A stretch of 64,000 nucleotides of DNA from Rhodothermus profundi (GCF_900142415.1 NZ_FRAU01000008.1:65013-129012), one strand, 5' to 3'. Positions 2,358-24,192 are shown, numbered from the stretch's first letter. Made by a program: numbers and translations. Notes: generated by a model not told the origin, from the letters alone.

Positions 2358-2362
2358 AAACG

Positions 2363-5300
2363 ATGCGAAAAACCTTCCTGCTGCTATGGCTGGCAGGCCT
2401 GGTCGCCTGTCGACCTGATGAACCTCCGCTATTTGAACAAGTGGATCCCGATCAAACGGGCATCACCTTCGTCAACGAAGTGCCCATCGACACCGCCTTT
2501 AACATCATCAATTACATGTACTACTATGACGGAGCAGGGGTGGCAGCAGGTGACTTCAACGGCGATGGCTGGCCCGACCTGTACTTTGTGGCCAACCGGG
2601 GCCCTAATCGGCTGTACCTGAACCGGGGCAACTGGCGCTTCGAAGACGTTACGGAAAAAGCCGGGGTGGCCGGCTCCGGCAACTGGAACACCGGCGTGGC
2701 TGTGGCCGATGTCGACGGCAACGGATGGCTTGATCTCTATCTGGTTACGTTCAGCAACTACCTGGATCGCACCGGACGCAATCAGCTCTTTCTGAATCAG
2801 GGGCCGGACGCCGAAGGAATCCCGCGTTTTCGGGAGGCAGCCGCCGAGTTCGGGCTGGATATTGCCGCCTATGGGTCGCAGGCCGTGTTTTTCGACTATG
2901 ACCGCGATGGGGATCTGGACCTGTACCTGCTGAACCGAGCGCTTCATACAGAAGAAAGCTTTGGCCCGGCCGAACGACTCCGCCATCGCTTTGATCCAAA
3001 CGCCAGTGATCGTCTGCTGCGCAACGATAACGGACACTTTGTGGATGTAACGACCGAAGCCGGGATTGTGGATGGGCTGATCGGGTATGGCCTGGGCGTG
3101 GTCGTGAGCGATCTGGATCAGGACGGCTGGCCCGATCTGTATGTGGCCAACGACTTTCACGAGGACGACCGGATCTATCGCAACAACGGCGACGGCACCT
3201 TCACGGACGTGCTGCGCACCGCTACGGCCTACACCTCGCAGGCGTCTATGGGAGTGGATGCCGGCGACGTCGATAACGATGGGCTGCCGGACCTGGTCGT
3301 GCTCGACATGATGCCCTTTGATCCGGCCATTTTCAAAACAGCCGATGGGCCCGAATCGTTTGAGTTGTTCCAGCGCAAGCGACAGTTCGGGTATCACCCC
3401 CAGTATCCGCACAACGTGCTGCTTCGTAACCTGGGCGCCTGGCAGTTCGTGGACGTGGCCTTTCAGGCAGGGGTGGCGGCTACCGATTGGAGCTGGGCCG
3501 CGCTACTGGCCGACCTGGACAACGACGGCTATCAGGATCTCTTGGTCACCAACGGCATCTACCACCGACCGAACGACCTGGACTATATCCGCTATGTAGG
3601 ACAGCCCGAGGTGCAACAAGCCCTGGCGCAGGGGCTCTCGCCGGAACTGCTCAAAGAGCTGCTTCGCCATATGCCCCGGGTGCCCCAGCCCAATTTTGCA
3701 TTTCACAACAACAGAGATGGCACGTTTACCAACCGAGCTCAAGCATGGGGGCTGGGACGACCGGGTTTCTCAACCGGGGCCGTATATGTGGACCTGGATC
3801 GCGATGGGGATCTGGACCTGGTCACCAACGAAATCAACGCGCCCGCTGCTGTCTACCGCAACCATGTCCGCGAGCGGACGGGGGCGCACTACCTGCGGCT
3901 TGTGCTTGAGGGAGAGGGGATGAACCGACTGGGCATCGGGGCCCGGGTAACCCTGCACTACGGAGACAGCCTGCAACTGCGCGAGCAGCAGCCTGTGCGC
4001 GGCTGGCTCTCTTCAGTCGAGCCGGTGCTGCACTTCGGGCTGGGCACCCGTGCGCAGGTAGACTCGGTAGTGGTCGTCTGGCCCGATGGCCGCTGCGAGG
4101 TGCGTCGGAACGTGGCAGCCGATCAGACGCTGGTCTTTCGGCAGGCCGATGCGCAGCAGCGATGTCCGTCCCCACCGTCTGCGCCTCTCCTTTTCCAGGA
4201 TCTGACGGAGAGGGCGGGACTCCCGTACCGCCATAAGGAAAATGCCTTCGTAGACTTCACGCGAGAGCCGCTGCAACCGCACCGGCTTTCGCGGGAAGGG
4301 CCTGCGCTGGCCGTAGGTGACGTGAATGGAGATGGGCTGGGGGATGTTTTTCTGGGAGGAGCTAAGTGGCAGCCTGCCCGGCTGCTGGTGCAGCAACCCG
4401 ACGGAACATTTCAATCGACTAACGAAGCGCTCTGGGAGGAGGAAAGCCGCTACGAGGATGTAGATGCCCTCTTCTTTGATGCCGATGGCGACGGCGATCT
4501 GGACCTGTACGTGGTCAGTGCAGGCAACGAGTGGTGGGGCCAGGCCGAAGCGCTGCGGGACCGGCTCTATCGCAATGACGGCCACGGACGGTTTGTCCGG
4601 GATGAGCAGGCGCTTCCTGATCTGTTTGCAAACGGGTGCTGCGTGCGCGCGGCCGACTACGATCGCGATGGCGATCTGGATTTGTTCGTAGGCGGACGGG
4701 TCGAGGCGCGTCGCTACGGAGAAGATCCCCGCAGTTACCTGCTGGAAAACCAGGGAAATGGCACCTTCGTGGATGTTACCGAAACACGGGCGCCTGCGCT
4801 GGCCCGCGTGGGGATGGTGACCGATGCCGCCTGGGGCGACTTCAACGGTGATGGACGGCTCGATTTGCTGGTGGTGGGCGAGTGGCTGCCCCTGACGTTG
4901 TTCTTCCAGGAGCAGAATGGTCGGCTGACGCCCGTTTATCTGGAAAATACCGAGGGGTGGTGGTTCAGCGTGCAGGTAGCCGACCTGGATCGCGACGGGG
5001 ATCTGGACTTTGTAGCTGGCAATCTAGGGCTGAACGCGACGCTGCAGGCAACCCCTGAGCGACCTGTTCAGCTTTATCTGCACGACTTCGATCAGAACGG
5101 CCATCCTGATCCCCTGTTGGTCGCATACTGGGGAGAGCAAGCCTATCCGGTAGCGACCATTGATCTGCTGGCGCGACGCTTTCCGGCGCTGGGCCGGCGG
5201 TTTGCCAGCTATCATGACTGGGGCGCCCGAACCCTGGCAGAGCTTTTTGGAGAGGAGGCTGTGCAACAGGCAACCATTCGGCGGGCCTATACTTTTGCAT

Positions 5301-5743
5301 CGGTCTGGGCCGAAAATGACGGGCAGGGCCATTTCACGCTCCATGTGCTGCCCGAGGCAGCGCAATGGTTTCCGGTGCGCGCGCTGCTGGTAGCCGATCT
5401 GACCGGAGACGGTCGGCTGGATGTCATAGCAGCCGGTAACTTTGACGAGGCCAATCCAGCGTTAGGACACTATGGCCACGGACCGGGCGTTGTGCTGGTG
5501 CAGCAGGCGGCGGGAGCCTTTACAGCCTTACGGCCTGGCACTTCGGGGCTGGTGCTACGTGGCCAGGTGCGCCACCTTGCCTGGCTGCAACGTCCGGAGG
5601 GAGGGCAGTGGCTGCTGGTAGCACGTAACGATGCCCCGCTTCAGGTTCTGGCAGTGCATACAAAGCGAAAAGCACCGCTGGAGGGAGCTGCCCCCTCGGC
5701 CGGCCTGTCGGAAGGAGACCCATCCAGGTTGCAGACATATTGA
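2363..5743 (+). CDS. Large FG-GAP/VCBS lipoprotein with ASPIC/UnbV domain
   Basis: 1126 residues. The N-terminus is a lipoprotein signal peptide with lipobox LVAC (Cys16), so the protein should be anchored to the outer or inner membrane. Two runs of FG-GAP/VCBS repeats (N-terminal ~50-500 and C-terminal ~600-1090), each rich in DxDxDG calcium-type loops, flank a central ASPIC/UnbV domain at about residues 520-590 (GIGARVTL, FGLGTR, VVVWPDGR). It is the complete paralogue of the truncated gene just upstream. The biochemical role of this family is not established; in Bacteroidota such proteins often lie near TonB-dependent receptors, as here (receptor starts ~260 bases downstream). A surface-binding or scaffold role is inference. 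Confidence 0.92.
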   Translation: MRKTFLLLWLAGLVACRPDEPPLFEQVDPDQTGITFVNEVPIDTAFNIINYMYYYDGAGVAAGDFNGDGWPDLYFVANRGPNRLYLNRGNWRFEDVTEKAGVAGSGNWNTGVAVADVDGNGWLDLYLVTFSNYLDRTGRNQLFLNQGPDAEGIPRFREAAAEFGLDIAAYGSQAVFFDYDRDGDLDLYLLNRALHTEESFGPAERLRHRFDPNASDRLLRNDNGHFVDVTTEAGIVDGLIGYGLGVVVSDLDQDGWPDLYVANDFHEDDRIYRNNGDGTFTDVLRTATAYTSQASMGVDAGDVDNDGLPDLVVLDMMPFDPAIFKTADGPESFELFQRKRQFGYHPQYPHNVLLRNLGAWQFVDVAFQAGVAATDWSWAALLADLDNDGYQDLLVTNGIYHRPNDLDYIRYVGQPEVQQALAQGLSPELLKELLRHMPRVPQPNFAFHNNRDGTFTNRAQAWGLGRPGFSTGAVYVDLDRDGDLDLVTNEINAPAAVYRNHVRERTGAHYLRLVLEGEGMNRLGIGARVTLHYGDSLQLREQQPVRGWLSSVEPVLHFGLGTRAQVDSVVVVWPDGRCEVRRNVAADQTLVFRQADAQQRCPSPPSAPLLFQDLTERAGLPYRHKENAFVDFTREPLQPHRLSREGPALAVGDVNGDGLGDVFLGGAKWQPARLLVQQPDGTFQSTNEALWEEESRYEDVDALFFDADGDGDLDLYVVSAGNEWWGQAEALRDRLYRNDGHGRFVRDEQALPDLFANGCCVRAADYDRDGDLDLFVGGRVEARRYGEDPRSYLLENQGNGTFVDVTETRAPALARVGMVTDAAWGDFNGDGRLDLLVVGEWLPLTLFFQEQNGRLTPVYLENTEGWWFSVQVADLDRDGDLDFVAGNLGLNATLQATPERPVQLYLHDFDQNGHPDPLLVAYWGEQAYPVATIDLLARRFPALGRRFASYHDWGARTLAELFGEEAVQQATIRRAYTFASVWAENDGQGHFTLHVLPEAAQWFPVRALLVADLTGDGRLDVIAAGNFDEANPALGHYGHGPGVVLVQQAAGAFTALRPGTSGLVLRGQVRHLAWLQRPEGGQWLLVARNDAPLQVLAVHTKRKAPLEGAAPSAGLSEGDPSRLQTY

Positions 5744-6000: not shown

Positions 6001-9000
6001 ATGAAACGCGCGCTACGAACCCTGGGCACGCTGCTACTGGTCGGCTGTTGGACGGCTGGAGCATGGGCTCAGACCGGTAAGATCACCGGTCGCGTGGTTG
6101 ATGCCCGTACAGGAGAGCCTCTGCCTGGAGTGAACGTGGTCATTGAAGGGACCACGATGGGTGCTACGACTGACATTGAGGGCTACTATACCATCATCAA
6201 TGTGCGTCCGGGCACCTATACCCTTCGCGCCTCTTTTGTGGGCTATGTGCCGCAGGTGGTTGAAAATGTGCAAGTTGACGTGGGGTTGACCACAGAAGTG
6301 AACTTTACCCTGCAGGAGACGGCGATTGGGCTGGAAGAGGTTGTGGTGCAGGCTACGCGGCCGATTGTGCAGCCCGATGTTTCTGCCAGCATTGTCAACA
6401 TTGATGCAACGGTGATTGAGGCCCTGCCGGTTGCCACCGATGTGGTGCAGGTAATCGGGTTGCAGCCCGGGTTTGAGCCAGGGCTCGTGGTGCGCGGCTA
6501 TGGAGGCAACCAGATTGCCTTTTTGCTTGACGGGATGAACCTGGCCGATCCGCGCACAAACGCTCCCTTCACGGGCGTCAGCTTTACGGCGGTAGAAGAA
6601 GTGCAGGCGCAGACTGGAGGCTTTACGGCCGAGTATGGGAACGTGCGCTCCGGACTCATTAATGTCGTGATGAAGGAGCCGCGCACGAATCGCTATACCG
6701 TTGATCTGATTCTGCGGTACGCACCCCCTCAGGCGAAAACCTTCAATGGCACGCCGAACGATCCAGATGCTTTCTGGGTGCGGCCGTATTTCGATCCGGC
6801 GGTGGCCATGATCGGCACGGATGCAGCCTGGGATGACTGGACAGAAAATCAATTTCCGGACTTTGAGGGATGGCAGGCTGCAGCGGCAGCGTATCCGGCC
6901 AATAATGATAGTGACCCCAGCAATGATGTAACGCCGCAGCAGTTGCAGAAGGCCTATGAATGGATGATTCGCAAGAATAATCGCATCGACGATCCAGACT
7001 ATCAGATTGACGGTACCATTACAGGGCCCGTCCCGGGTCTTGGGCCTTCTCTGGGAAATTTACGCTTCCTGATCTCCCATCGGCGCACGCAGACGGCTTT
7101 TGTCATTCCGCAGCGTCGGCGGGCCTATCAGGATTACACCACGCAGGCCAAGTTCGTCTCCGATGTTGCGGCAGGAGCTAAACTGGAACTGGTAGGGCTC
7201 TGGTCGAAGCGAAAAGGACTGGTGCGTCCGGTTTCCATTGCCGATGGGGCCACAGCCGACATGGTAGATGGAAGCACGCCCGTCTATCCATGGGATGGAC
7301 GTAATTACCTGGAAAATATGATTTTTGCCGGAGGGGAAGGCATTGAGGACCATGTCGCTCGCGCCGCCCTTTTCGGTGACTGGGTCATCAACCCGATGGA
7401 TATTAACTATACGCTTTATGGCGCCAAGTTTACGCATGCTCTGACGCCCAATACGTTCTACGAGGTGCAGCTGCAACGGGTGCAGACCGAGTACCTGACC
7501 GGTCATATTCCCTACCGAAAGCCCGATCCTGTTGTCTGCGTAACTCCCGAACCAGCCATTCGGCCCATCGACGATCCAGCCTGCCAGGCGCCCAATGTGA
7601 TCCGGTTGAATGAGGCGCCGTTCGGCTATGAGCCTAAGGGAATGCAGGATGGCCTGAGCGCTAACGGCCTGCGCATCGGGGGGCATGGAGGTGTTGCCTA
7701 TGATACGTCACAGGTATCCCGCTGGGTCTTTGGCGCTTCGGTGACCAGCCAGCTTAACCGCTACCTGCAAGTAAAAGGAGGTGTTGAGTTCCATGTAAGT
7801 GACTACAACATGAATTATGGCGAAGACGATCCGTTCTTTGTGCATCATGCCAATCCGAAATATCGCTGGCATCGAAAGCCCCAGCAGGGAGCTGCGTATC
7901 TGCAGAGCAAGCTGGAATTCAAAGGACTGATTGCGAACCTGGGCGTTCGCCTCGACTACTTCAACCCGAGCGGCAGGTGGTATGTCTACGAGCCGTATGA
8001 TCGCGCCTTTACGCCGGTAATCGGAGCGGACAAAATCGATGAGGTGCTGCCCCGAGAGCCGGTCAAAAAACAATTCACGCTGAGCCCACGGCTGGGAATT
8101 TCCTTTCCGGTTTCAGAAAACAGCAAGCTGTACTTCAACTATGGGCACTTCCGACAGATGCCTGATCCCGTTCCTCTGTTTGAAGTCGAAAAAGTCTCCA
8201 GTGGAGCGGTAGGGCGCATTGGTAATCCCAATCTACCGTTGCAGAAAACCGTTGCCTACGAGCTGGGCTTCGAGCAGAACCTGTTCGACATGTTTCTGCT
8301 CCGCATCGCTGGCTACTACCGCGACGTGTCGCTGCAGGCGCGCAATATCAACTTCGAAAGTATTGACGGGGAGGTAGACTACTGGGTGGCGCGGCCCTGG
8401 AATTATGGCGATGTGCGCGGTTTTGAAATTTCCATCGCCAAAAACCGAGGGCGCTGGATTCAGGGCTTTATCAACTATACCTACATGTCCCGTAAAGCCG
8501 GGAATTTCGGCTTTACCTACAACTATGAAAATCCGGTTCAGCAACAGCAGTATCTGCTGACAACTGTGGACCATTATCAGAGCAAGCCGATTCCTGAGCC
8601 GTTTGCTCGTTTTAATCTGGATTTTGTCACGCCCGAAGATTACGGCCCGAACTATAACGGCTTTCGACCCCTGGCTGGATGGCGCCTGAGTCTGCTGGGG
8701 GAATGGCGGGCCGGGCAGGTGCTCACGTGGACCGGCCAGCAACTGGTGGAAGGAATCAGTCCGGTCCGGGGCATTGAGCACAACGTGCGCTGGAAGGACT
8801 ATTACAACTTCGATCTACGCCTGAGCAAAACATTTACGACCGATCTGGGCGAGGTGCAGTTCTTCATGGATGTAACCAACGTCTTCAACATTCGGCACAT
8901 GAACCGCTGGAGCGGTTTTACCGGGCCGGACGATCTGCGAGATTATCTGCAGTCGTTGCATCTGCCTGCAAGCACGTTTGAAGGACTGGACAGCCCGCCC

Positions 9001-9318
9001 TATCTATTCGTGCCAGGTAACGACCGTCCGGGAGATTATCGAAAGCCCGGGGTTGAGTTTGTGCCCATTGTGGTGTGCCCGCCTTCAGGCTGCACGCCGG
9101 TGGTTGGCTCCAGCGACGACCCCAACGATCCTACGCGACCGCTGTACTACCAGAACGGTACGTACTATCGCTATAACGGAAGCGAATTCGTCGAGGCCGA
9201 CCCTGACTTTGTCAAGAAGGTGCTGGAAGACAAGGCATACATCGACATGCCAAACGCCGACTTCTTCACCTTCTTCAATCCGCGTCGCGTATTCTTCGGG
9301 CTTCGGATTTCCTTCTGA
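6001..9318 (+). CDS. TonB-dependent receptor with carboxypeptidase-regulatory-like N-terminal domain
   Basis: 1105 residues. A signal peptide ends at AWA/Q (cleavage ~23/24). Residues ~27-110 form a CarboxypepD_reg-like beta-sandwich (GKITGRVVDARTGEPLPGVN, then GTYTLRASFVGY), ~115-230 the plug (FLLDGMNLADPR, TGGFTAEYGNVRSG), and the rest the outer-membrane barrel, ending in the typical aromatic terminus FFGLRISF. It would import a ligand across the outer membrane using TonB energy, or act as a SusC-type channel. No SusD-like partner follows; instead a T9SS-type cargo protein and a PorV-like protein lie downstream, apparently in the same operon (27-base and 32-base gaps). Substrate unknown. 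Confidence 0.93.
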   Translation: MKRALRTLGTLLLVGCWTAGAWAQTGKITGRVVDARTGEPLPGVNVVIEGTTMGATTDIEGYYTIINVRPGTYTLRASFVGYVPQVVENVQVDVGLTTEVNFTLQETAIGLEEVVVQATRPIVQPDVSASIVNIDATVIEALPVATDVVQVIGLQPGFEPGLVVRGYGGNQIAFLLDGMNLADPRTNAPFTGVSFTAVEEVQAQTGGFTAEYGNVRSGLINVVMKEPRTNRYTVDLILRYAPPQAKTFNGTPNDPDAFWVRPYFDPAVAMIGTDAAWDDWTENQFPDFEGWQAAAAAYPANNDSDPSNDVTPQQLQKAYEWMIRKNNRIDDPDYQIDGTITGPVPGLGPSLGNLRFLISHRRTQTAFVIPQRRRAYQDYTTQAKFVSDVAAGAKLELVGLWSKRKGLVRPVSIADGATADMVDGSTPVYPWDGRNYLENMIFAGGEGIEDHVARAALFGDWVINPMDINYTLYGAKFTHALTPNTFYEVQLQRVQTEYLTGHIPYRKPDPVVCVTPEPAIRPIDDPACQAPNVIRLNEAPFGYEPKGMQDGLSANGLRIGGHGGVAYDTSQVSRWVFGASVTSQLNRYLQVKGGVEFHVSDYNMNYGEDDPFFVHHANPKYRWHRKPQQGAAYLQSKLEFKGLIANLGVRLDYFNPSGRWYVYEPYDRAFTPVIGADKIDEVLPREPVKKQFTLSPRLGISFPVSENSKLYFNYGHFRQMPDPVPLFEVEKVSSGAVGRIGNPNLPLQKTVAYELGFEQNLFDMFLLRIAGYYRDVSLQARNINFESIDGEVDYWVARPWNYGDVRGFEISIAKNRGRWIQGFINYTYMSRKAGNFGFTYNYENPVQQQQYLLTTVDHYQSKPIPEPFARFNLDFVTPEDYGPNYNGFRPLAGWRLSLLGEWRAGQVLTWTGQQLVEGISPVRGIEHNVRWKDYYNFDLRLSKTFTTDLGEVQFFMDVTNVFNIRHMNRWSGFTGPDDLRDYLQSLHLPASTFEGLDSPPYLFVPGNDRPGDYRKPGVEFVPIVVCPPSGCTPVVGSSDDPNDPTRPLYYQNGTYYRYNGSEFVEADPDFVKKVLEDKAYIDMPNADFFTFFNPRRVFFGLRISF

Positions 9319-9345: not shown

Positions 9346-11571
9346 ATGAGCACGTTGATGCCCAAACGCACGGCAGCCCGCCAGGGATATTGGCTGAGTG
9401 TTTGTCTGGTGATGCTTCTGGTCGCCGCACCGGCTCAGGCTCAGTGGAGCACGCGCTGGCTGGCTATTGGACGCCTCCAATCTCCTTATCTGGGCGGCGG
9501 CGCTGAGCCAGAAAACATGGCAGGGATTGGCAACAACGGAACGTACACCTGGCCCGGCCACCTGATCGGTACCTACTGGGGACACTGGCGAGGCCTCTGG
9601 ATCAGCGCGCAGAACTGGCGCTCGCCGGACGGACAAACGTTCCCGGTGCGCATTGAGCATATTGGCCCGCGTTTTAATGGACTGGGAGAATACTTCCAGG
9701 ATGTTATCAAGCTGGTCTACAAGTTTGAAGCACCGGAAGTGCTGGTGGACGGACTGAAGTCTTTTGACAAACCGGCCGTCCCCGACGAAATCGATCCGAA
9801 CATCCCGTCTGATGCCATGGTCGAAAACATTGCGCATACGGCCATGGGCATTGAAGTGCGCCGCCGGGCCTATCAGTTCAGCAACGAACAGCACCAGGAT
9901 TACCACATCATTGAGTACGTCTTTACAAACACCGGCAATGTGGACGAAGATGAAGAGATCGAACTGCCCGATCAGACGCTCCAGGACGTTTACTTCACTT
10001 TCTTCTATCGTAACAAAACAAACGCACCAGCCGGCGCCTGGGACAACAGCCATGGAGGAGCTGCGTGGGGCAAGTACACGATGAACGATGCCCTGGTGCC
10101 GGACTGGGAAGACATGCCGGGCGAACAGTTCAGTGAGCGGTTTGCCCGAGACTATGAATTCTGGAAAGATCATGCGGCCCAGTTTTCCTGGCTGGGGCAC
10201 GTGCCCGACCAGACCAACTTCAACACAATTGGCAACCCGATGTGGTTTGAGCTCCAGCCCTGGATTGCGCACATCGGCGGCGATACAACGGGGCGCCTGG
10301 GCGGAGCAGCCATGTTCGGTACGCTGACCGTTCACGCAGACCGCTCGGCCTCCGATGAGTCGCACGACGAAGGTCAGCCCCGCATGATGGACATCCTCGA
10401 TTCGGACGATGCCGACCTGACCAGCCGTAACGATCACAATGATATCAGCCAGATGCAATTTGAGCGAGACTGGCTGGTAGATGGCACAAAAAGCGGAGCG
10501 GGCCCTCCTCGCTACAACGACCAGAAGCCACCGCATGCGTGGCGCATTCAGCCAGATGGCGATTTTGCCCGTCAAACCGCACCGCCACAGCCCAGTGAAG
10601 GGGGCTATGGATTTGTGCAAAGCTTCGGTCCCTATACGCTGGGCCCCGGCGAAAACGTACGGATCGTAATCGCCGAAGGAATTGCCGGTCTGAACGATAA
10701 GCTTGCGTATGCCCTGGGCCGCTGGTATAAACAGCAGGTCCGGCAGTTGGGCCGTGACGCGGCCGACCAGGCCATCTTCTACTGGAATCCCACCACCAAT
10801 ACCTACTGCAACGAAGGCGAACCGGGATGCGTCGGCATGACCAAGAACGACTGGGTCATGACCGCCCGCGATTCTCTCTTCCAGCTCTTTGATCGAATTC
10901 TGGAAGTCTGGAACAACGGCATGCAGGTGCCCCAGCCACCCAGGCCCCCACGGCGATTTGTGGTAACCTCAGGCACCGACAAAATCACGCTGGAATGGGA
11001 GACCTATGCCGGGGAGCCCGATCCGGTAAAATGGGAAATCTGGCGAGCACAGAACTATTACTATGGCATTCCGCTTCCGGATAGCTCGACCATCTATCAG
11101 AAAATTGCCGAATTGCCTGGAAATGCCCGGTCCTACACGGATACAGAGGTAACCCGTGGGGTCAATTATTTCTACTACATCCAGGCGGTCGGCAGCAACG
11201 GACTGAAAAGCAATCGGTATTGGACGCAGACCTACCTGCCTGCCGTGCTGCGCAGGCCGCCTGGCGCCTCGCTGGATGAAGTGCGGGTCGTTCCCAATCC
11301 CTACGTGCTGGAAGCTGAGTTGGGCGTGCGTTTTCCGGACATTCAGGACAAAATCGCCTTCTATGGCCTCCCGCCGCAGGCGACTATTCGCATCTACACA
11401 GAGCTTGGCGAGCTGGTGAAGGTGATCGAACACACCGATGGCAGTGGCGACGAATTCTGGGATCTGACGACTTCGTCGCGTCAGGTGGTGGCAAGCGGTA
11501 TCTACTTCGCCGTTATCACCGACAACGAGACAGGGGCACAGACAACCCGAACCATTGTGATTATTCGCTAA
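9346..11571 (+). CDS. Secreted protein with T9SS-type C-terminal sorting domain
   Basis: 741 residues. N-terminal signal peptide ends around AQAQ (residue ~32); an alternative ATG is four codons in. The bulk is unassigned and rich in Trp and Asp. A fibronectin-type-III-like segment is seen around residues 545-640 (PPRRFVVTSGTDKITLEWE). The last ~90 residues resemble a type IX secretion type A sorting domain / FlgD-like fold: VVPNPY, then ATIRIYTELGELVKVIE, then ASGIYFAVIT and the terminal TRTIVIIR. The preceding receptor and following PorV-like gene support cell-surface delivery. Core T9SS genes are not in this window, so export by T9SS is inference. Enzymatic activity: none recognised. Confidence 0.8.
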   Translation: MSTLMPKRTAARQGYWLSVCLVMLLVAAPAQAQWSTRWLAIGRLQSPYLGGGAEPENMAGIGNNGTYTWPGHLIGTYWGHWRGLWISAQNWRSPDGQTFPVRIEHIGPRFNGLGEYFQDVIKLVYKFEAPEVLVDGLKSFDKPAVPDEIDPNIPSDAMVENIAHTAMGIEVRRRAYQFSNEQHQDYHIIEYVFTNTGNVDEDEEIELPDQTLQDVYFTFFYRNKTNAPAGAWDNSHGGAAWGKYTMNDALVPDWEDMPGEQFSERFARDYEFWKDHAAQFSWLGHVPDQTNFNTIGNPMWFELQPWIAHIGGDTTGRLGGAAMFGTLTVHADRSASDESHDEGQPRMMDILDSDDADLTSRNDHNDISQMQFERDWLVDGTKSGAGPPRYNDQKPPHAWRIQPDGDFARQTAPPQPSEGGYGFVQSFGPYTLGPGENVRIVIAEGIAGLNDKLAYALGRWYKQQVRQLGRDAADQAIFYWNPTTNTYCNEGEPGCVGMTKNDWVMTARDSLFQLFDRILEVWNNGMQVPQPPRPPRRFVVTSGTDKITLEWETYAGEPDPVKWEIWRAQNYYYGIPLPDSSTIYQKIAELPGNARSYTDTEVTRGVNYFYYIQAVGSNGLKSNRYWTQTYLPAVLRRPPGASLDEVRVVPNPYVLEAELGVRFPDIQDKIAFYGLPPQATIRIYTELGELVKVIEHTDGSGDEFWDLTTSSRQVVASGIYFAVITDNETGAQTTRTIVIIR

Positions 11572-11603: not shown

Positions 11604-12638
11604 ATGAAACGACTGCTGCATATAAGCATGGGCTTATTGCTGGGCGCCTGCCTGGCTGCAGGCCGCCAGCTTCACGCCCAGGATACCGGTCCGGTTACAG
11701 AGATTGAAACCAAAAAACTTGCGCAGACCGGGTTCAAGTTTCTCAGCGTCTCACTCGATCCACGGGCGGCTGCGCTGGGAGACGCGCTTACAGCTCGGGA
11801 TGACAATGGCTCGCTGTCGCTCTTTTATAATCCGGCCGGAATGGCGTACTTCGGGCAGACCTTCCACTTTGCAGTAGGCCAGACGCAATGGATCAACCAT
11901 ACCGACTACAATTACGCCAGCTTGGCGTACCGGCCGGCCGATGGGCAGTACGGGGTGATTGGGCTGAGCATTGTGGCGGTCAGCTACCCGGCGGTCCTTA
12001 AGACCATCTTTGCCACCAATGAGCAGGGATACGAAGAGCAGGGAACGTACAGTCCCAGTGCCCTGGCCATTGGCATTGGCTATGCCCGGGCGATTACCGA
12101 TCGCTTTGCCGTTGGCGGCCATGTCCGTCTGGCCCGTCAAGACCTGGGTTCTGCGCAGGTCGGGCTGGACGGTCGAGCTCAACGGTACGCGAAGTCGACC
12201 GTTTCGGTAGATTTTGGCGTGCTCTATCGCACAGCGCTCCAGAGCCTGACCTTTGCAATGAGCGTGCGTAACTTTTCGCGCGAGCTCACCTACGTGGAAG
12301 AAAGCTTTGAACTGCCGCTGACTTTTCAGATTGGAGCTACCTATAACTTGATGGACCTGGTAGCGCCGGGCAATACCCTGCATGCCCTCTGGCTTAACGT
12401 CGAAGCCGTTCGCCCCCGCGACTACCCAGAACAGATCAAGGTGGGCGCAGAATATGCGTTCATGGATCTGCTTTTCTTGCGGGCTGGCTACGTGAACCCA
12501 ACCGATGAGCAGGGCTTCAACCTGGGAGCCGGGGTGCGGCTGAGCACCCGGAGCTTCCGCATTGGCGTGGACTATGTCTACACTTCCTTTGGCATCTTCG
12601 ATAACGTGCATCGGCTGGGATTGCAACTGGCCTTCTGA
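11604..12638 (+). CDS. PorV/PorQ-family outer-membrane protein
   Basis: 344 residues with signal peptide (to ~LHAQ, residue 26). The stretch from ~40 (GFKFLSVSLDPRAAALGDA, then LFYNPAGMA) is the hallmark of the PorV/PorQ (UPF0164-like) family, and the remainder has alternating strands of a FadL-like beta barrel, ending RLGLQLAF. In T9SS organisms PorV binds cargo sorting domains and shuttles cargo from translocon to attachment complex; PorV-like paralogues exist next to specific cargo genes. Here the immediately upstream protein has such a sorting domain, so a dedicated pair is plausible. A strong terminator-like hairpin follows 34 bases after the stop. Confidence 0.85.
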   Translation: MKRLLHISMGLLLGACLAAGRQLHAQDTGPVTEIETKKLAQTGFKFLSVSLDPRAAALGDALTARDDNGSLSLFYNPAGMAYFGQTFHFAVGQTQWINHTDYNYASLAYRPADGQYGVIGLSIVAVSYPAVLKTIFATNEQGYEEQGTYSPSALAIGIGYARAITDRFAVGGHVRLARQDLGSAQVGLDGRAQRYAKSTVSVDFGVLYRTALQSLTFAMSVRNFSRELTYVEESFELPLTFQIGATYNLMDLVAPGNTLHALWLNVEAVRPRDYPEQIKVGAEYAFMDLLFLRAGYVNPTDEQGFNLGAGVRLSTRSFRIGVDYVYTSFGIFDNVHRLGLQLAF

Positions 12639-12672
12639 AACGCGGCCCAGAAGAGCGCTGAAGCATTCCAGG

Positions 12673-12708
12673 CCCCGGAAATCGAAAACAACGATTTTCG
12701 GGGTCTTT
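12673..12708 (+). terminator. Intrinsic terminator-like hairpin
   Basis: A 12-base-pair stem (12673-12684 pairing with 12692-12703, one G-U pair) with a 7-base loop, followed by a T-rich tail (TCTTT). It closes the transcript of the receptor/T9SS-cargo/PorV-like genes. It lies only ~35 bases before the next start codon, so it could also act as an attenuator for the downstream genes. Confidence 0.75.
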
Positions 12709-12742
12709 CCTGTTGTATATTCCAGGACAAAAATGCATAGTC

Positions 12743-14002
12743 GTGCTGCGGACGCTCGTATACGGAGGACTGGTGGGGGTCTTGGTGCTTCTGGAAATGG
12801 GCTGTGGGGAAAACAATCCCATGCCTGCTTCCTCCTCGTTGCTGCCGGCGCAACAGCGCGCGCCATTGCAGCAGGCATGGCAGGCCTATGAGGCAGGGGA
12901 TTATCACCGAGCCATGCGGCTGGTGGATAGTCTGCTTGCCCAGGAAGCTGTTGCCGAAGCCTATTTCCTGAAGGGGCGCATCCTGCTGGATGCCAATGCC
13001 TTTGAGAAAGCAATTGCGGCGTTTCAGCAGGCTCGGGTGCGTGATCCTCTGCTGCGGGGCGTCTATTTTCAACTGGGACACGCGGCCTTTCTGCAGGGCG
13101 CCTACCGAAAAGCCCTGGACTATTATCTGAAAGAACTGGAACTGATCCAGGCGTCGGCAGAGCGCTCTTATGAGTCGCAGGCCGAACGAAACGTGCTGGC
13201 AGCCATTTACCGCCAGGCCGGCCGCGCCTGTTTTCTGCTCGACAGCCTGGAAGCAGCGCGCCGGTTCTACATGCAAGCACTGGCAGCGGATTCCACGGAG
13301 AGCGAAACGTATCGCTGGCTGGCTGAGCTAGAAGAGCAGGAAGGCCGGCTGGCGCAGGCGCTAACGTTTGCAGAGAGGGCGCTGCAGTTAAACCCCGGTC
13401 ATCTGGACAACCTCTATGCTTTTGGGCGTCTTCTGCTGCAAAACGGCTACCTGCAAGACGCTGTGCATTTCTTGCGACTGGTGCTAGCGCGTTATCCCCT
13501 GCATCGCGGCGCCAACTACAATCTGGGACGGGCCCTGATGCGGCTGGGCGAGCGCGAGGCCGGGCAATTCTTTCTGGAGCGGGCGCATCGGATTCAACAG
13601 CTTAGCGGAAAAATAGGCCAGGCGCGCCTGAACGCCTACCAGAGCCAGAGCGCCCGCCCCTGGCAAGAGCTGGCGACGCTTCTGATGCAGGCCGGGCAAT
13701 ACGAGGAAGCGCGAAAGGCCCTGGACGTGGCTATTTTCTGGGATCCCGACAACCTGGCGCTGCAGAATGACCGCGCCAACCTGGCGTTGCTGCTGGGCGA
13801 CACGCTGGACGCGGTGCGCCGCTACTATCAGGTGCTACAACGCGACTCGACGCTGGCCGACGTCTGGTTAAACCTGGGGGTCGTGCTGGCAGCGCAGAAA
13901 CACTACGAAGCAGCCCGCCGCGCCTGGCTTCAGGCCTTGCACTATCGCCCGAATGATGATACCTTGCGACAGTATCTCGCCGAACTGGAACATCGGAAGT
14001 GA
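12743..14002 (+). CDS. TPR-repeat lipoprotein
   Basis: 419 residues from the GTG at 12743. A TTG ten codons upstream is possible, but the GTG gives a compact lipoprotein signal with lipobox EMGC (Cys21). From about residue 45 on it is tandem tetratricopeptide repeats, for example QQAWQAYEAGDYHRAMRLVD, YFQLGHAAFLQGAYRKALDYY, and a final VWLNLGVVLAAQKHYEAARRAW. TPRs scaffold protein complexes. It is followed 19 bases later by the pentaheme cytochrome, with a further CRTAC1-like protein and a second TPR lipoprotein, so it is probably part of a periplasmic or membrane-associated complex with them. Function unknown. Confidence 0.88.
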   Translation: MLRTLVYGGLVGVLVLLEMGCGENNPMPASSSLLPAQQRAPLQQAWQAYEAGDYHRAMRLVDSLLAQEAVAEAYFLKGRILLDANAFEKAIAAFQQARVRDPLLRGVYFQLGHAAFLQGAYRKALDYYLKELELIQASAERSYESQAERNVLAAIYRQAGRACFLLDSLEAARRFYMQALAADSTESETYRWLAELEEQEGRLAQALTFAERALQLNPGHLDNLYAFGRLLLQNGYLQDAVHFLRLVLARYPLHRGANYNLGRALMRLGEREAGQFFLERAHRIQQLSGKIGQARLNAYQSQSARPWQELATLLMQAGQYEEARKALDVAIFWDPDNLALQNDRANLALLLGDTLDAVRRYYQVLQRDSTLADVWLNLGVVLAAQKHYEAARRAWLQALHYRPNDDTLRQYLAELEHRK

Positions 14003-14021
14003 CTTCTGAAGCGCTTACGGT

Positions 14022-16742
14022 ATGCCCCGCCCTCATAACCGCCTGTTTCAGCTCCCGGCCCGTCAGCGCCGGCTGGTAAGCGTCCTGCTGGGCGGCTTCC
14101 TGGTGATGCTGCTCAACAGTCTGGTGCTGGTGTTGTTCGATCGCTCAACCGCCCTGCTCTACATGAGCAACGTGCTGGTGCACGTCGGGCTCGGGCTGCT
14201 GCTGATGGTGCCCTTACTACTGTTTCTGCTGGCCCATATCCGCACGATGCCGCTCCGCTGGAATCGGCGGGCCACAGCCGCCGGCGCGTTTACGGCGCTT
14301 TCTATGGGATTGCTGTTGCTGAGCGGCATCCTGCTTTTCTGGAGCCCGCCCACGCTAAACCGGCGCTGGCTGCTGACGCTGCACGTGGTAACCATGTTCA
14401 CCTCGCTGCTGGGATTTCTGGTGCATGTGGCGCTCAAGCGGGGTAGGCGGTTTCGCTTTTTGCTGCCCGAAGGGCTGGAAGCGCTCCGGTGGGGCCAGTT
14501 ACTACGCCATCCGTTGACGCTCACCTTCAGCGCCGGTGTGGTGGTCTCGCTGGCGTTCTTTCTGGTGCCCTGGCTCAAACAGCCGGATCCCGTCTACCTG
14601 GATACCGGTACGGAAAAACCGCTGGCTGCTGCTGAGGCGCTTCTGGCTCATGAAGGTTTCTTCAAGGAGGCCACGCTTTCCGGATCGAAGACCTGCGGAC
14701 AGGCCGGCTGCCATCCCGACATCTATGCGCAGTGGGCCGCTTCAGCGCATCGTTTTTCTTCCTTCAACAACCCCTACTACCGGCGCTCTATCGAATACAT
14801 GCTCCAGCGCCGACCGGTAGAAGCTGCCCGCTGGTGCGCTTCCTGCCACGATCCGGTTATGCTCTTTTCTGGACGCTTCGGGCACCGCATGCCGCTCGAC
14901 ACCACGCACTGGACCGCTCATGAAGGCATCACCTGCCTGGCCTGTCATGCCATTACCGGATTGCGCGACCTGCGCGGCAATGGTCGGTATGTCATTGCGG
15001 AACCAGACGAATACCCCTTTGCGCGCAGCACCAATCCTCTCGGACAGTGGCTGCACCGGCAGCTTATCCGGGCCAAACCGGAACCGCACCGGGAGGCCAT
15101 GCTGCGGCCTGTGCACCGAACCGAGCAGTTCTGCAGCACCTGCCACAAGGTGGGGCTTCCGCCGGAAGTCAATTACTACCGATGGCTTCGCGGCCAGAAC
15201 GAATATGACGCCTGGCAGATGAGCGGCGTCTCCGGAAGCACGGTGCGCTCCTTCTATCTCCCCAGCCAACCGCGCACCTGTATCGACTGCCATATGCCGC
15301 TGGTCCCCTCCGATGACCAGGGAAACGACGGAGGCTTTGTGCGGAGCCATCGCTTTCTGGCTGCCAACACGGCCCTGCCGTTTCTCAAAGGCCATGATGA
15401 ACAGCTACGGGCTACTCAGGCCTTTCTGCAGGACTCCATTGCTACCGTCGATCTATTTCTGGTGCGCGTCAACGGCCGCACCTATGGCCCGGATGCACCG
15501 ATGCCTGTCCTTCAGCCGGGTGATCACGTGGAGCTCACGGTGGTCGTGCGCAACCGAAAGGTAGGCCACGCCTTGCCCGGCGGCACCAACGACTCGAATG
15601 AGCTCTGGCTGGAAGTGGTCGGGCGCGACCGCAAAGGCCAGCCTGTCGTAGCCTCAGGCTTGCTGGACGCGGAAGGCCGCGTTGACTCAACCGCCCACTT
15701 CTTTGGCGCGGTGTTCGTTGACCGGGCCGGGCAGGAAGCCAACAAACGCAATCCCCACGACTTTCGCACACCGGTCTATGTGAACGTTATCAATCCAGGT
15801 ACCGCGCGCACCGTGCACTACCGATTTACCGTGCCGCCCGGACGCCAGATTACGGAGCTAACGGTTGCTTTCAAACATCGAAAATTCAAGTGGTACTTCC
15901 ACAACTGGACGTTCCGGGGCCAGGTAGCTCCCGGTCAACCAGACTCACTGGCCACCCCGGAGGTGGACTACCGCCGGTGGATCCTGGCCGAAGACCGCCA
16001 TGCGCCGGACCTACCGGTAACTGTCATTGCATCGGCGCGGCGCGTCGCCGGAAAAATTCCCGAAAGCAACGTTCCCCTCTGGGAGCGATGGAACGACTAT
16101 GGTATCGGGCTCTTCCTGGAAGGAAATACGCGGCGGGCACTGGCTGCTTTCGAACAGGTAAGCCGATTGGCCCCGGACAACCCCGAAGGGCCGATTAATC
16201 TGGCACGTGTGCTGATTGCGGAAGGGCAACTGGAGCGAGCTATGGCCGCCCTGGAAGAAGCCGAACGCCGACGCCCCGGCTATTTGAAGACCGCCTATTT
16301 CCGCGGCAAAATCTATCAGCGGCAGGGCAATTACGATCAGGCGCTGGCAGAGTGGATGAAGGTCGCCGCTCGCTACCCCCTTGATCGGGTGCTGCTGCAG
16401 GAAATCGGTCGCGTCCACTATCTTTCAGGACGCTACGAAGAAGCACTTCGATGGTTTGATCGCATCCTGACTATTGATCCGGAGGACCTGGGCGGCCTCT
16501 ACAACCGCATGCTGGCGCTGGGGGCCCTGGGGCGCACCGAAGCTTTTCAGGAGGCAAAGGCGCGCTATGAATACCATAAAATTGACGAGGACGCGCCGGC
16601 CTGGAGCACGCCGTACAAACACCGCCATCCGATGGCCAACCGCGAAGCGCAACCTATCCATGAACACGAGCTGCATCCCGTAGGACCCAACACGCAGGAG
16701 CGTCTAATCCTGGCCTGGCAACATGCTACAGACGATGCGTAA
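14022..16742 (+). CDS. Membrane-anchored pentaheme cytochrome c fused to C-terminal TPRs
   Basis: 906 residues. About five hydrophobic segments lie in the first ~185 residues (19-40, 47-72, 85-107, 115-138, 168-185). Then come five heme-attachment motifs: C225-X4-C230-H, C272-X2-C275-H, C305-X2-C308-H, C371-X2-C374-H and C420-X2-C423-H. The first has the less common CX4CH spacing. Residues ~690-860 are TPRs (NDYGIGLFLEGNTRRALAAF and following). The heme domain resembles the cytochrome c-554/multiheme type and should sit in the periplasm. It probably passes electrons between membrane and a periplasmic partner; donor and acceptor are unknown. The 3' end overlaps the next gene, indicating translational coupling. 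Confidence 0.88.
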   Translation: MPRPHNRLFQLPARQRRLVSVLLGGFLVMLLNSLVLVLFDRSTALLYMSNVLVHVGLGLLLMVPLLLFLLAHIRTMPLRWNRRATAAGAFTALSMGLLLLSGILLFWSPPTLNRRWLLTLHVVTMFTSLLGFLVHVALKRGRRFRFLLPEGLEALRWGQLLRHPLTLTFSAGVVVSLAFFLVPWLKQPDPVYLDTGTEKPLAAAEALLAHEGFFKEATLSGSKTCGQAGCHPDIYAQWAASAHRFSSFNNPYYRRSIEYMLQRRPVEAARWCASCHDPVMLFSGRFGHRMPLDTTHWTAHEGITCLACHAITGLRDLRGNGRYVIAEPDEYPFARSTNPLGQWLHRQLIRAKPEPHREAMLRPVHRTEQFCSTCHKVGLPPEVNYYRWLRGQNEYDAWQMSGVSGSTVRSFYLPSQPRTCIDCHMPLVPSDDQGNDGGFVRSHRFLAANTALPFLKGHDEQLRATQAFLQDSIATVDLFLVRVNGRTYGPDAPMPVLQPGDHVELTVVVRNRKVGHALPGGTNDSNELWLEVVGRDRKGQPVVASGLLDAEGRVDSTAHFFGAVFVDRAGQEANKRNPHDFRTPVYVNVINPGTARTVHYRFTVPPGRQITELTVAFKHRKFKWYFHNWTFRGQVAPGQPDSLATPEVDYRRWILAEDRHAPDLPVTVIASARRVAGKIPESNVPLWERWNDYGIGLFLEGNTRRALAAFEQVSRLAPDNPEGPINLARVLIAEGQLERAMAALEEAERRRPGYLKTAYFRGKIYQRQGNYDQALAEWMKVAARYPLDRVLLQEIGRVHYLSGRYEEALRWFDRILTIDPEDLGGLYNRMLALGALGRTEAFQEAKARYEYHKIDEDAPAWSTPYKHRHPMANREAQPIHEHELHPVGPNTQERLILAWQHATDDA

Positions 16743-18483
16743 ACGAATTGGCTACGGCCTGCTGGCGCTGCTGGCAATCGGCTGTGAGCAGGCCAGGCCG
16801 GTGCAGCCGGCCGATGAAACAACCGCCTCCATGACGGCGGTGCAGATCGCCTTTACCGATGTAACGGAAACGGCCGGATTGCACATCTTTCGGCATGAAA
16901 CCGGTGCCTTCGGGCAGAAATGGTTCCCTGAATCTATGGGCTCGGGGTGCGGCTTTGTGGATTACAATGGCGATGGCTGGCTCGACATTGTGCTGGTAGG
17001 GGGCGGCGTCTGGCCCGGCCATAGCGACAAAGACTGGGTGCGGCCCCTCTGGCTCTTTCGCAACAATGGCGATGGTACCTTCACGGACGTAACCGACGAG
17101 GCCGGACTCGGCCAGCTCACTGCCTATGGCATTGGCATTACTGCTGCCGACTACGACAACGACGGCGACGAAGACCTGTACCTTACCACGCTCTGGAAAA
17201 ATATCCTGCTCCGCAACAATGGCGACGGCACCTTCACCGACGTAACCGACGAGGCCGGGGTAGCAGGCGACTCGGTCTGGAGCAGCTCGGCGCTCTTTTT
17301 CGATGCCGACCGCGATGGTGATCTAGACCTGTTCGTGGGAAACTATGTCTACTGGACTCCGGAAACCGACCTCTGGTGCTCGCTTGATGAGAAAACCAAA
17401 GGCTACTGCACCCCCGAAGCCTACACCGGAATTCCTCCCTATTTTTTCCGCAACAATGGCGACGGCACCTTCACCGACGAAAGCGAAAAAGCCGGATTTG
17501 TGCCGGCACCTGGCAAAACGCTCGGGGTTGCTGAAACCGACTACAACCGCGACGGATGCCCGGATCTCTATGTAGCCAACGATACGCAGCCGGATCAACT
17601 CTACCGCAACAATTGCGACGGGACCTTCACCGACATCGGGCTGACCAGTGGGGTAGCTTATGATGAAAACGGAAAAGCACGTGCCGGTATGGGGCTCGAC
17701 GCAGGCGTGGTCGACACAACCGGACAGGTCAGTCTGTTTGTAGGGAACTTTTCTAAAGAAATGATTGGCGTTTATCGCTACATCGGTAACGATCTGTTTA
17801 TTGACCGGGCTGCTGTCTCTAAGGTGGGCCGTCAGAGCCTGCAAACGCTCACGTTTGGACTCTTCCTGTTTGATGTCGACCTGGACGGCGATCTGGACCT
17901 GTTTGCGGCAAACGGACACGTGCAGGATGAAATTGAACGCGTGCAGGATGGCATTACCTACGCCCAGCCCCCGCACCTCTTTTTAAATGATGGCAATGGC
18001 TTTTTTACGGACATTGCACCCGTGATAGGCGGTGTGCTGGCGCAGCCTCTTGTTGCCCGCGGCGCTGCCTATGGCGACTTCAACCGGGATGGACTGGTAG
18101 ACATTCTGGTGGTTGAGAACCATGGACCGGCGCATCTGTGGCGCAACGATACAAAAGGCGCCGGGCATTATCTGCGCGTGCAGCTTGTCGGCACAAAAAG
18201 CCATCCACAGGGCATCAGCAGTCAGGTCGTGGTGTGGGTAGCAGGGCGACCCCTGGAGCAACGGGTCCGTACCGGCGGTAGCTACCTGGCCGTTTCGGAA
18301 AAGACATTGACATTCGGTCTGGGAGCCGCTGCGCGCGTGGAGGCTGTGGAGGTAACATGGGCCAGTGGGTTGCGTGAGCGCTTTGGTCCCTTTGCAGCCG
18401 ACCAGGAGGTCCGCCTGGTGGAAGGGACGGGACAGCCCGTGGAAACACTGGCGCAGGCTGCGTACGAAGCCAGGCAAAAATGA
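16735..18483 (+). CDS. CRTAC1-type FG-GAP/ASPIC-UnbV lipoprotein
   Basis: 582 residues from the ATG at 16735, which overlaps the cytochrome stop by 8 bases; an in-frame ATG four codons earlier (16723) is an alternative. Lipobox AIGC (Cys17). FG-GAP/VCBS repeats run from ~40 to ~450 with repeated NNGDGTFTDVTDEAG units, and a C-terminal ASPIC/UnbV domain lies at ~480-550 (GISSQVVVWVAGRPLEQ, FGLGAAARVEAVEVTW). This single-propeller plus C-terminal ASPIC layout matches the CRTAC1 family, shorter than the double-propeller proteins at the start of the window. The stop overlaps the next start (ATGA). Likely calcium-binding and periplasmic or surface-exposed; function unknown. Confidence 0.9.
   Translation: MRKRIGYGLLALLAIGCEQARPVQPADETTASMTAVQIAFTDVTETAGLHIFRHETGAFGQKWFPESMGSGCGFVDYNGDGWLDIVLVGGGVWPGHSDKDWVRPLWLFRNNGDGTFTDVTDEAGLGQLTAYGIGITAADYDNDGDEDLYLTTLWKNILLRNNGDGTFTDVTDEAGVAGDSVWSSSALFFDADRDGDLDLFVGNYVYWTPETDLWCSLDEKTKGYCTPEAYTGIPPYFFRNNGDGTFTDESEKAGFVPAPGKTLGVAETDYNRDGCPDLYVANDTQPDQLYRNNCDGTFTDIGLTSGVAYDENGKARAGMGLDAGVVDTTGQVSLFVGNFSKEMIGVYRYIGNDLFIDRAAVSKVGRQSLQTLTFGLFLFDVDLDGDLDLFAANGHVQDEIERVQDGITYAQPPHLFLNDGNGFFTDIAPVIGGVLAQPLVARGAAYGDFNRDGLVDILVVENHGPAHLWRNDTKGAGHYLRVQLVGTKSHPQGISSQVVVWVAGRPLEQRVRTGGSYLAVSEKTLTFGLGAAARVEAVEVTWASGLRERFGPFAADQEVRLVEGTGQPVETLAQAAYEARQK
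17059..17640 (+). repeat. Repeated FG-GAP coding units (near-identical DNA)
   Basis: Four near-identical ~30-base segments beginning at 17059, 17212, 17449 and 17605 each encode R-N-N-x-D-G-T-F-T-D within the CRTAC1-type gene. The first two extend identity through VTDEAG. They are coding repeats with irregular spacing, not a CRISPR array, but could support slipped-strand or intragenic recombination. Confidence 0.75.
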
Positions 18484-19700
18484 GAAAGCATAACCGAATC
18501 GGATGGGGGGGAGGGCTGATCGTTCTGCTGCTGACTGCAGGGGCATGTCGCCCGGTTCCTTCCGCTTATCTTCCGCTTCAGCCCCGGGCGCAGGCGCTGT
18601 TGAACCAGGCAGAACAAGCGTTGCAGCAGCAACAGTTCACGCAGGCTGTTCTCCTGGCCGACAGTGCCGCAACGCTTCAACCCGATCATCCAGCTATTCT
18701 GTTCTTCAAAGGGCGCGTCTACGCGCACATGCGGCTGCTCAACGAATCCGATAGCCTCTACCGGCTAGTAGCCCGACGGGCACCCACTTATCCAGGTCTC
18801 TGGCACAACCTGGCCAACAATGCGGCCCGCCGGGGGCAGTTTCGGAAAGCGATTACGCTTTTCAGGCAGGAACTGGCGCAGCGTCCCAATGCGCTTTCGT
18901 GGCGCGGTATCGGCCGGGCCTATCTGGAACTGGGAAAGCCCGACAGTGCGCGGCTTGCTTTTGAAACCGCCCTGGCGTACGACAGCACCTACGCCGAAGC
19001 CTGGCTTGACCTGGCCGAACTATACGAAGACGAAGGACGCTATGCCGAAGCGCTCCAGGCTGCCCGTCGCGCCTGGAAACTGGCACCGCAGAGTCTGGTG
19101 GCACGCTATCGGCTGGGCAACCTGCTCCGGCTAACCGGAAAGCCAGCGCAGGCGCGTCCGCTGCTTGAAGCCGTGGTGCAGGAGGCCCCCTGGCATCAGG
19201 CGGCCCATTACAGCCTGGGACGCGTGTTGCACCAACTGGGGGAGACGGAAGCTGCCCGCCGCATGCTGGAACGGGCGGAAGCGCTGCGTGCCCTTCAGGC
19301 CCGCGTGGAGCAGGCAGAGCTGCTGGTAGCGAACACGCCTCGCGATCCGTATGCCTATGCCACGCTGGGATCGCTGCTGCGACGGCTGGGCCAGTATCAG
19401 GAGGCGCTCTACGCCTATCAGGTAGCCCATTTTCTGGAGCCAGGCAATCTGGAGTTTCTGAATAACATGGCTATTCTGCATCTTCTGATGGGCCGCGAAG
19501 ACCAGGCTATTGCCCTGCTGGAGCGCGCTGTGAGACGCGACACAACGTTTGTCGATGGATGGATCAATCTGGGCATTCTGCATGCCCGGCAGGGAAACCG
19601 GGAAGCTGCCCGGCACGCCTGGGAGCGGGCGCTTCGGTTGGCCCCCGATCGCCCCGAACCCCGGCGTTACTTAGCAGGGCTTGAAACAGACACCCCATAA
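18480..19700 (+). CDS. TPR-repeat lipoprotein
   Basis: 406 residues. ATGA overlap with the CRTAC1-type gene shows tight coupling. Lipobox AGAC (Cys23). Nearly all of the mature protein is tetratricopeptide repeats (residues ~40-400), e.g. LNQAEQALQQQQFTQAVLLAD, AWLDLAELYEDEGRYAEALQAA and GWINLGILHARQGNREAARHAW. Similar in plan to the TPR lipoprotein that opens this block but not an obvious recent duplicate. Probably the last gene of the cytochrome/CRTAC1/TPR unit. No enzymatic motif seen. Confidence 0.88.
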   Translation: MRKHNRIGWGGGLIVLLLTAGACRPVPSAYLPLQPRAQALLNQAEQALQQQQFTQAVLLADSAATLQPDHPAILFFKGRVYAHMRLLNESDSLYRLVARRAPTYPGLWHNLANNAARRGQFRKAITLFRQELAQRPNALSWRGIGRAYLELGKPDSARLAFETALAYDSTYAEAWLDLAELYEDEGRYAEALQAARRAWKLAPQSLVARYRLGNLLRLTGKPAQARPLLEAVVQEAPWHQAAHYSLGRVLHQLGETEAARRMLERAEALRALQARVEQAELLVANTPRDPYAYATLGSLLRRLGQYQEALYAYQVAHFLEPGNLEFLNNMAILHLLMGREDQAIALLERAVRRDTTFVDGWINLGILHARQGNREAARHAWERALRLAPDRPEPRRYLAGLETDTP

Positions 19701-22741: not shown

Positions 22742-22812
22742 CGGTGCGCGGAGCCGCGAAGGATCGGATCGCCGCAGATACATTTTCCTGCAAAACCAAC
22801 CCGACGTGAAAG

Positions 22813-24147: not shown

Positions 24148-24192
24148 TTACGCGATCCCAGGTAAAGAAACTTAACGAACGAGCTGCCTCCT

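Follow-up and report, generated by a model that had tools for sequence, protein, structure and literature searches.

What could a bacterium build from a row of genes coding for TPR lipoproteins, a multiheme cytochrome and a calcium propeller, without a substrate-specific enzyme among them? Such a block was located at positions 12743 to 19700 of a 64,000-nucleotide stretch of DNA from the heat-loving bacterium Rhodothermus profundi (the window), and its products had been predicted to form a periplasmic or surface electron-transfer complex. This is still the best reading of the gene linkage, the congruent trees and the transmembrane histidines described below, but it does not hold for the four genes as a unit: the four-gene block as such was found only in Rhodothermus, and the widely conserved core is the pair of cytochrome and CRTAC1. 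The analysis points to a widespread, so far undescribed electron-transfer machine made of these two proteins, in about eight phyla.

The gene block in the Rhodothermus profundi window

Four intact reading frames, all on the plus strand, form the block. TPR1 (12743..14002), the first gene, codes for a TPR lipoprotein. CYT (14022..16742; 906 aa) codes for a cytochrome with five transmembrane helices, a pentaheme c region, a beta-rich (Ig-like) domain and a C-terminal TPR domain, as assigned from the reading frame, Pfam and an AlphaFold2 model. CRTAC1 (16735..18483; 582 aa) is a lipoprotein with an FG-GAP propeller and an ASPIC domain (Pfam and AlphaFold2), and TPR2 (18480..19700; 406 aa), the last gene, codes for another TPR lipoprotein, recognised by its reading frame, its Pfam TPR matches and its relatives. 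The gene content and coordinates of the original prediction agree with Pfam, which gave TPR matches in TPR1, CYT and TPR2, Cytochrome_C554 above cut-off in CYT, and FG-GAP_3 and UnbV_ASPIC above cut-off in CRTAC1. Recomputed reading frames returned the same spacing, with a gap of 19 bases between TPR1 and CYT and overlaps of 8 bases between CYT and CRTAC1 and of 4 bases between CRTAC1 and TPR2. The start codons are uncertain: TPR1 begins with GTG, with TTG at 12713 also possible, and an alternative ATG of CRTAC1 at 16723 would bring its overlap with CYT to 20 bases. The predicted membrane tethering of all four products is likely, in view of the helices of CYT and the lipoboxes of CRTAC1 and TPR2, but the lipobox of TPR1 is poor (LEMGC, with Glu at -3); its ortholog in another Rhodothermus genome (L035) carries GIGC.

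The left boundary of the block is supported by a terminator-like hairpin (15 pairs followed by TTCCTGTT; 12670..12706, plus strand) located between the PorV gene and TPR1. Hairpins of different sequence were found at the matching spot in three other Rhodothermus genomes (L034, L035 and L037), and this like placement in four species marks the four genes as one transcription unit. The order PorV-TPR1-CYT-CRTAC1-TPR2 is kept within the genus (L034, L035 and L147), and its recurrence argues that the block is more than a chance arrangement; the TPR1 orthologs at the matching position agree at 61-76% in L034, L035 and L037 and at 65% in L147.

Just upstream, on the same strand, lie the genes for a TonB-dependent receptor (CarboxypepD_reg and Plug; 6001..9318), a T9SS-sorted protein (9346..11571; C-terminal end PorZ-like, Por_Secre_tail just below cut-off) and a PorV/PorQ-family outer-membrane protein (11604..12638; NF033709 at 196.6 bits for a cut-off of 90). 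They are preceded by two large FG-GAP/ASPIC proteins of 771 and 1126 aa (42..5743, plus strand), considered here as context only. Tandem ASPIC frames of about 1100 aa, similar to this pair, were also observed in many genomes of the phylum that have no such cytochrome. Downstream, an intergenic stretch of 130 bases separates TPR2 from a sugar (3-ketoglycoside) cluster at 19831-25437, which contains an MFS transporter (Nuc_H_symport), a TIM-barrel isomerase, a 3-keto-disaccharide hydrolase, a BT_2158-like glycoside 3-dehydrogenase and a convergent Gfo/Idh gene. In genome G003 the sugar cluster comes after a second CRTAC1/TPR module.

Domains and invariant residues of the cytochrome and the propeller

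The five heme sites that had been predicted, one of them of the CX4CH type, were found in CYT, on the plus strand: CGQAGCH (site 1, 14694..14714), CASCH (site 2, 14835..14849), CLACH (site 3, 14934..14948), CSTCH (site 4, 15132..15146), followed by the invariant Lys376, and CIDCH (site 5, 15279..15293). Sites 2, 3 and 5 are invariant in the alignment of relatives, and the four sites other than site 1 have the form CXXCH. Site 1 is also CXXCH in most relatives outside Rhodothermota, Poribacteria, KSB1 and Calditrichota, and its CX4CH form is, as read from the alignment, a lineage variant. An NrfA-type nitrite reductase was ruled out, since there is no CXXCK and all five sites end in CH. In profile searches the window CYT matched no catalytic family, and Cytochrom_NNT (NapC/NrfH) was absent from its matches at E 0.01 and weak in 6 of 29 relatives.

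The AlphaFold2 model of CYT (mean pLDDT 88.4, pTM 0.85) comprises the five transmembrane helices (residues 13-185; 14058..14576), the heme region, the beta-rich domain (residues 474-675 by secondary structure of the model; 15441..16046) and a TPR solenoid (16077..16577, also matched by Pfam). The beta-rich domain, delimited by DSSP and alignments, holds the invariant His516 in a GHxxPxG motif. A Foldseek search with the entire model returned TPR folds only; the heme and beta-rich part, aligned by VIA-align over the Foldseek top 1000, superposed on Thermochromatium tepidum c552 (5ze8) with a Z of 18.2 and an rmsd of 3.4 Å over 341 of 385 residues. The profile of the CYT family also finds 5ze8 by sequence (E=2e-11), with the H-x-x-P-x-G motif aligned. 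The ExtKL model NF040886 was matched by 25 of 29 family members, far below its cut-off, and the window CYT reached 23.9 bits for an equivalog cut-off of 250. The modelled pentaheme domain is of the Thermochromatium c552/ExtKL fold; ExtKL and its relatives are a pentaheme family with an Ig-like domain (PMC11976967).

In the membrane part, His54 (second helix) and His121 (fourth helix) are invariant in 40 of 40 sequences; His72 (22/40) and His135 (29/40) are partly kept and absent in many lineages. The helix order and the positive loops place the N-terminus of CYT, in our reading of the sequence, in the cytoplasm, an orientation that would put His54 and His121 near the periplasmic face and His72 and His135 near the cytoplasmic face. 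These histidines are likely heme-b ligands, in a layout that would fit one or two b hemes, and the placement of the invariant ones suggests that the protein moves electrons into or out of the periplasm in a quinone-linked way. No b-type family scored above cut-off in this region, DUF4405 (PF14358) reaching 19.2 bits for a cut-off of 26.7 (E=0.0018).

The AlphaFold2 model of CRTAC1 (pLDDT 88.9) superposed on murine CRTAC1 (9etn) with a Z of 41.5 over 457 residues. The next structural matches were LGI1 and the fungal aldos-2-ulose dehydratase (Z 28.7), and Foldseek also returned GlcNAc-binding lectins; such likenesses of the model are compatible with ligand binding and are not proof of it.

Linkage of cytochrome and CRTAC1 genes across phyla

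The cytochrome loci compared are the best 80 of at least 557 relatives in GTDB genomes, mostly on MAG contigs, so that all counts are biased; neighbours come from mechanical reading-frame finding and taxonomic labels are those of the submitters. These best 80 of at least 557 fall in Rhodothermota, Poribacteria, Acidobacteriota, Planctomycetota, Pseudomonadota, Verrucomicrobiota, Gemmatimonadota, Latescibacterota, Calditrichota and KSB1, and most of them are 900-1000 aa long with the domain layout of CYT. Adjacency was scored for genes on the same strand from -300 to +700 bases downstream, on unpruned reading frames, since longer antisense frames mask genes (CRTAC1 in L037 and several cytochromes), and the controls were further genes of these loci coding for 150 aa or more. 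In this sample (best 80 of at least 557), counting only non-Poribacteria loci with room for a downstream gene, 43 of 54 have CRTAC1 directly after the cytochrome, versus 25 of 753 control genes; the linkage spans about eight phyla, often with a 4-base overlap. L093 probably has a downstream CRTAC1 too, masked in a longer frame. The linkage is not obligatory, as an adjacent CRTAC1 is missing in Poribacteria (0/21 among the best 80 of at least 557) and in a marine Rhodothermales clade. Each of the 16 genomes tested that have no CRTAC1 next to the cytochrome carries a homolog elsewhere, at 48-62% identity in most and 40-45% in three.

The trees of the two proteins, built from 40 loci, gave a distance correlation of 0.90 (0.87 without the paralog type; best of 1000 permutations 0.30), a value partly inflated by shared host ancestry; the pair still clearly travels together. 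Both trees have 25 of 37 splits in common, including Bacteroidota with Gemmatimonadota and Latescibacterota, and Gammaproteobacteria with Planctomycetota. A tree of 80 CRTAC1 proteins puts 40 of the 42 linked copies into a single clade of 46 (SH-aLRT 98), whose other members are five Acidobacteria copies near the same cytochromes and the masked frame of L093; the linked and unlinked labels change 4 times on this tree, against a shuffled mean of 26.8. TPR-CRTAC1 fusions of about 1000-1200 aa, encoded near the cytochrome in eight loci of several phyla (L068, L077, L079, L083, L091, L095, L104 and L115), form a separate clade.

The window genome itself (3.14 Mb) contains a second, divergent CYT-CRTAC1-TPR cassette (L031) at 34% identity, which has a counterpart in another family of the class (L033), and none of the five ASPIC matches of this genome is more than about 15 kb away from one or the other cytochrome. 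A search for conserved CRTAC1 and TPR neighbours had been proposed as a check, and only the CRTAC1 half of that expectation held widely. The four genes co-occur within Rhodothermus; beyond the genus only the cytochrome-CRTAC1 pair is widely kept, and the separate TPR lipoprotein genes are found instead, in Rhodothermota and Calditrichota, alongside CRTAC1 and a TonB/T9SS/PorV module of the outer membrane. This module precedes CRTAC1/TPR genes in L119-L121, L140 and L148. Marine Rhodothermales and a Calditrichia genome combine it with CRTAC1 genes and a TPR lipoprotein gene, the receptor position being outside the Calditrichia stretch covered. In G200, of the same order, CYT-CRTAC1 stands alone and the TonB receptor-T9SS protein-PorV-CRTAC1-TPR genes are elsewhere, and G003 has two neighbouring modules, of which one includes the cytochrome and the other lacks it. 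As the pair and the module are separable elsewhere, the Rhodothermus operon is a merger of both.

Three tandem CRTAC1 genes followed by a TPR lipoprotein gene were observed in marine Rhodothermales (L119 5693-12167, L120 5197-11702 and L121 5268-12054). The T9SS protein of the trio has matches in 45 of 102 sampled genera, mostly with genes other than CRTAC1 following it. The trio was rejected as an essential partner of the cytochrome: it lies behind the terminator-like hairpin, none adjoins the cytochrome outside the genus among the loci examined, and it has other neighbours in seven loci (L141, L143, L145, L146, L150, L151 and L153).

Proposed mechanism, alternatives and known systems

We propose, giving this reading about even chances, that the core of the block is a redox system of two co-inherited proteins, in which CYT carries out quinone-linked electron transfer and TPR and CRTAC1 parts provide docking to a partner. 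The cytochrome would sit in the cytoplasmic membrane with a four-helix, heme-b-like bundle plus a fifth helix, and expose its pentaheme, beta-rich and C-terminal TPR parts to the periplasm. Most likely, its membrane part would give electrons to the quinone pool, or take them from it, through a b heme close to the periplasmic side (His54/His121), and the five c hemes would conduct them through the periplasm. The TPR domain and CRTAC1 would dock CYT to a partner in the periplasm or the outer membrane; in Rhodothermus this would run through TPR1, TPR2 and the adjoining TonB/T9SS/PorV module. Outward flow from quinol and inward flow from periplasmic dehydrogenases, for example of glycosides, are live alternatives, and outside Rhodothermota no neighbouring gene settles the substrate.

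A chance co-operon of promiscuous TPR/ASPIC scaffold genes with an unrelated cytochrome would find room in the abundance of these genes, ASPIC occurring in 72 of 148 genomes of the phylum and in 4-35 copies in other cytochrome-bearing genomes; the linkage of 43/54 versus 25/753 (best 80 of at least 557), the congruent trees, the clade-specific partner and the independent paralogous cassette make it very improbable. Extracellular metal respiration by a porin-cytochrome system (Mtr/Pcc) was set aside, since the conserved pair includes no beta-barrel and PorV belongs to a generic family and lies behind the hairpin. The cultured members known to us are aerobes, which was also counted against it. 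The pentaheme domain could itself be a quinol-fed reductase acting at an open, five-coordinate heme, with CRTAC1 as an accessory or substrate-binding subunit. Besides the five proximal histidines, exactly four periplasmic histidines (243, 356, 443 and 516) are invariant in the 40 sequences, so that one heme may lack a His partner, unless His559, present in 35 of 40 and a possible fifth ligand in most members, serves. The invariant Lys376, Tyr395, Asp396, Arg620 and Lys621 would also suit a reductase, related sPHC/lPHC proteins have been given as potentially catalytic with five-coordinate hemes (PMC11976967), and CRTAC1 genes stand beside hydrazine-synthase-like genes (PMC12758564). Against these points weigh the lack of CXXCK and of any catalytic-family match of the window CYT, besides His559, and we consider a reductase unlikely.

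The cytochrome might instead serve as the electron sink when sugars or glycosides are oxidised in the periplasm: dehydrogenases of the flavo- or quinoprotein type would act on substrate bound by the CRTAC1/TonB module, CYT would pass the electrons to quinone or an oxidase chain, and the 3-keto product would be imported and hydrolysed. The original statement that the block holds no substrate-specific enzyme is correct within its coordinates, but the transporter, isomerase, hydrolase and 3-dehydrogenase genes of the sugar cluster follow it in Rhodothermus, and in six marine Rhodothermales loci (L040-L043, L045 and L158) the cytochrome gene is preceded, at a distance of a few bases, by a FAD_oxidored gene with a Tat-type signal (8381-9997 in L042), which in these loci stands in for CRTAC1. 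A PQQ-type dehydrogenase with a c-heme domain (L118 1933-4074) and a Gfo/Idh gene stand beside CRTAC1/TPR in a Calditrichia MAG, a GMC oxidoreductase lies near the cytochrome in an Acidobacteria locus (L116), and the propeller resembles aldos-2-ulose dehydratase and GlcNAc lectins. However, this likeness is broad, every enzyme neighbour is confined to one lineage, the intergenic stretch parts TPR2 from the sugar genes, and these phyla commonly have Gfo/Idh and isomerase genes, the neighbour enzymes being recorded here as occurrences. Sugar oxidation is a lead only, and as an explanation of the block improbable.

The docked, quinone-linked pair might, more tentatively, represent a new respiratory-type complex in at least eight phyla, a pentaheme reductase or oxidase with a dedicated calcium propeller; if true, this would be the first bacterial function for the ASPIC/CRTAC1 family. 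Acidobacteriota, Planctomycetota and neighbouring phyla are rich in CRTAC1/ASPIC proteins, whose presence there is unexplained; animal CRTAC1 is a relative. The link drawn here, from gene order and congruent trees, between one of their clades and a membrane pentaheme cytochrome offers a testable lead on the role of the bacterial propeller and a pointer to an uncharacterised periplasmic electron-transfer branch in abundant, mostly uncultured soil and marine heterotrophs; Rhodothermus and Wenzhouxiangella are cultured carriers.

Each domain is known, and the combination, its spread and its co-inheritance appear new. In line with the original prediction that no described system has this composition, no description of the cytochrome-TPR/CRTAC1 pair was found in the open-access literature. 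CYT resembles Thermochromatium c552, ExtKL, MccSep and PHC in its five hemes, its fold and its beta-rich domain with H-x-x-P-x-G; these proteins have, to our knowledge, no fused five-helix and TPR parts and are not paired with CRTAC1. Heme-b-like helices are also fused to a periplasmic multiheme domain in the Geobacter CbcL-type membrane b/c quinone-cytochrome modules, whereas CYT has another c-heme fold, an additional TPR domain and a propeller partner, and is found in aerobic heterotrophs such as Rhodothermus. The SusCD-like and TonB/T9SS/PorV modules of Bacteroidota likewise place a TonB receptor, a T9SS protein and PorV beside lipoproteins, with CRTAC1 and TPR lipoproteins following in some members only. 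The sole mention of CRTAC1 genes adjoining multiheme cytochrome genes that we found concerns hydrazine-synthase-like clusters (PMC12758564), which share this trait with the pair but have other cytochromes. Finally, the window CRTAC1 has the propeller and ASPIC domain of cartilage acidic protein 1 (9etn) and, unlike the animal protein, is a lipoprotein or membrane-anchored form genetically tied to a cytochrome.
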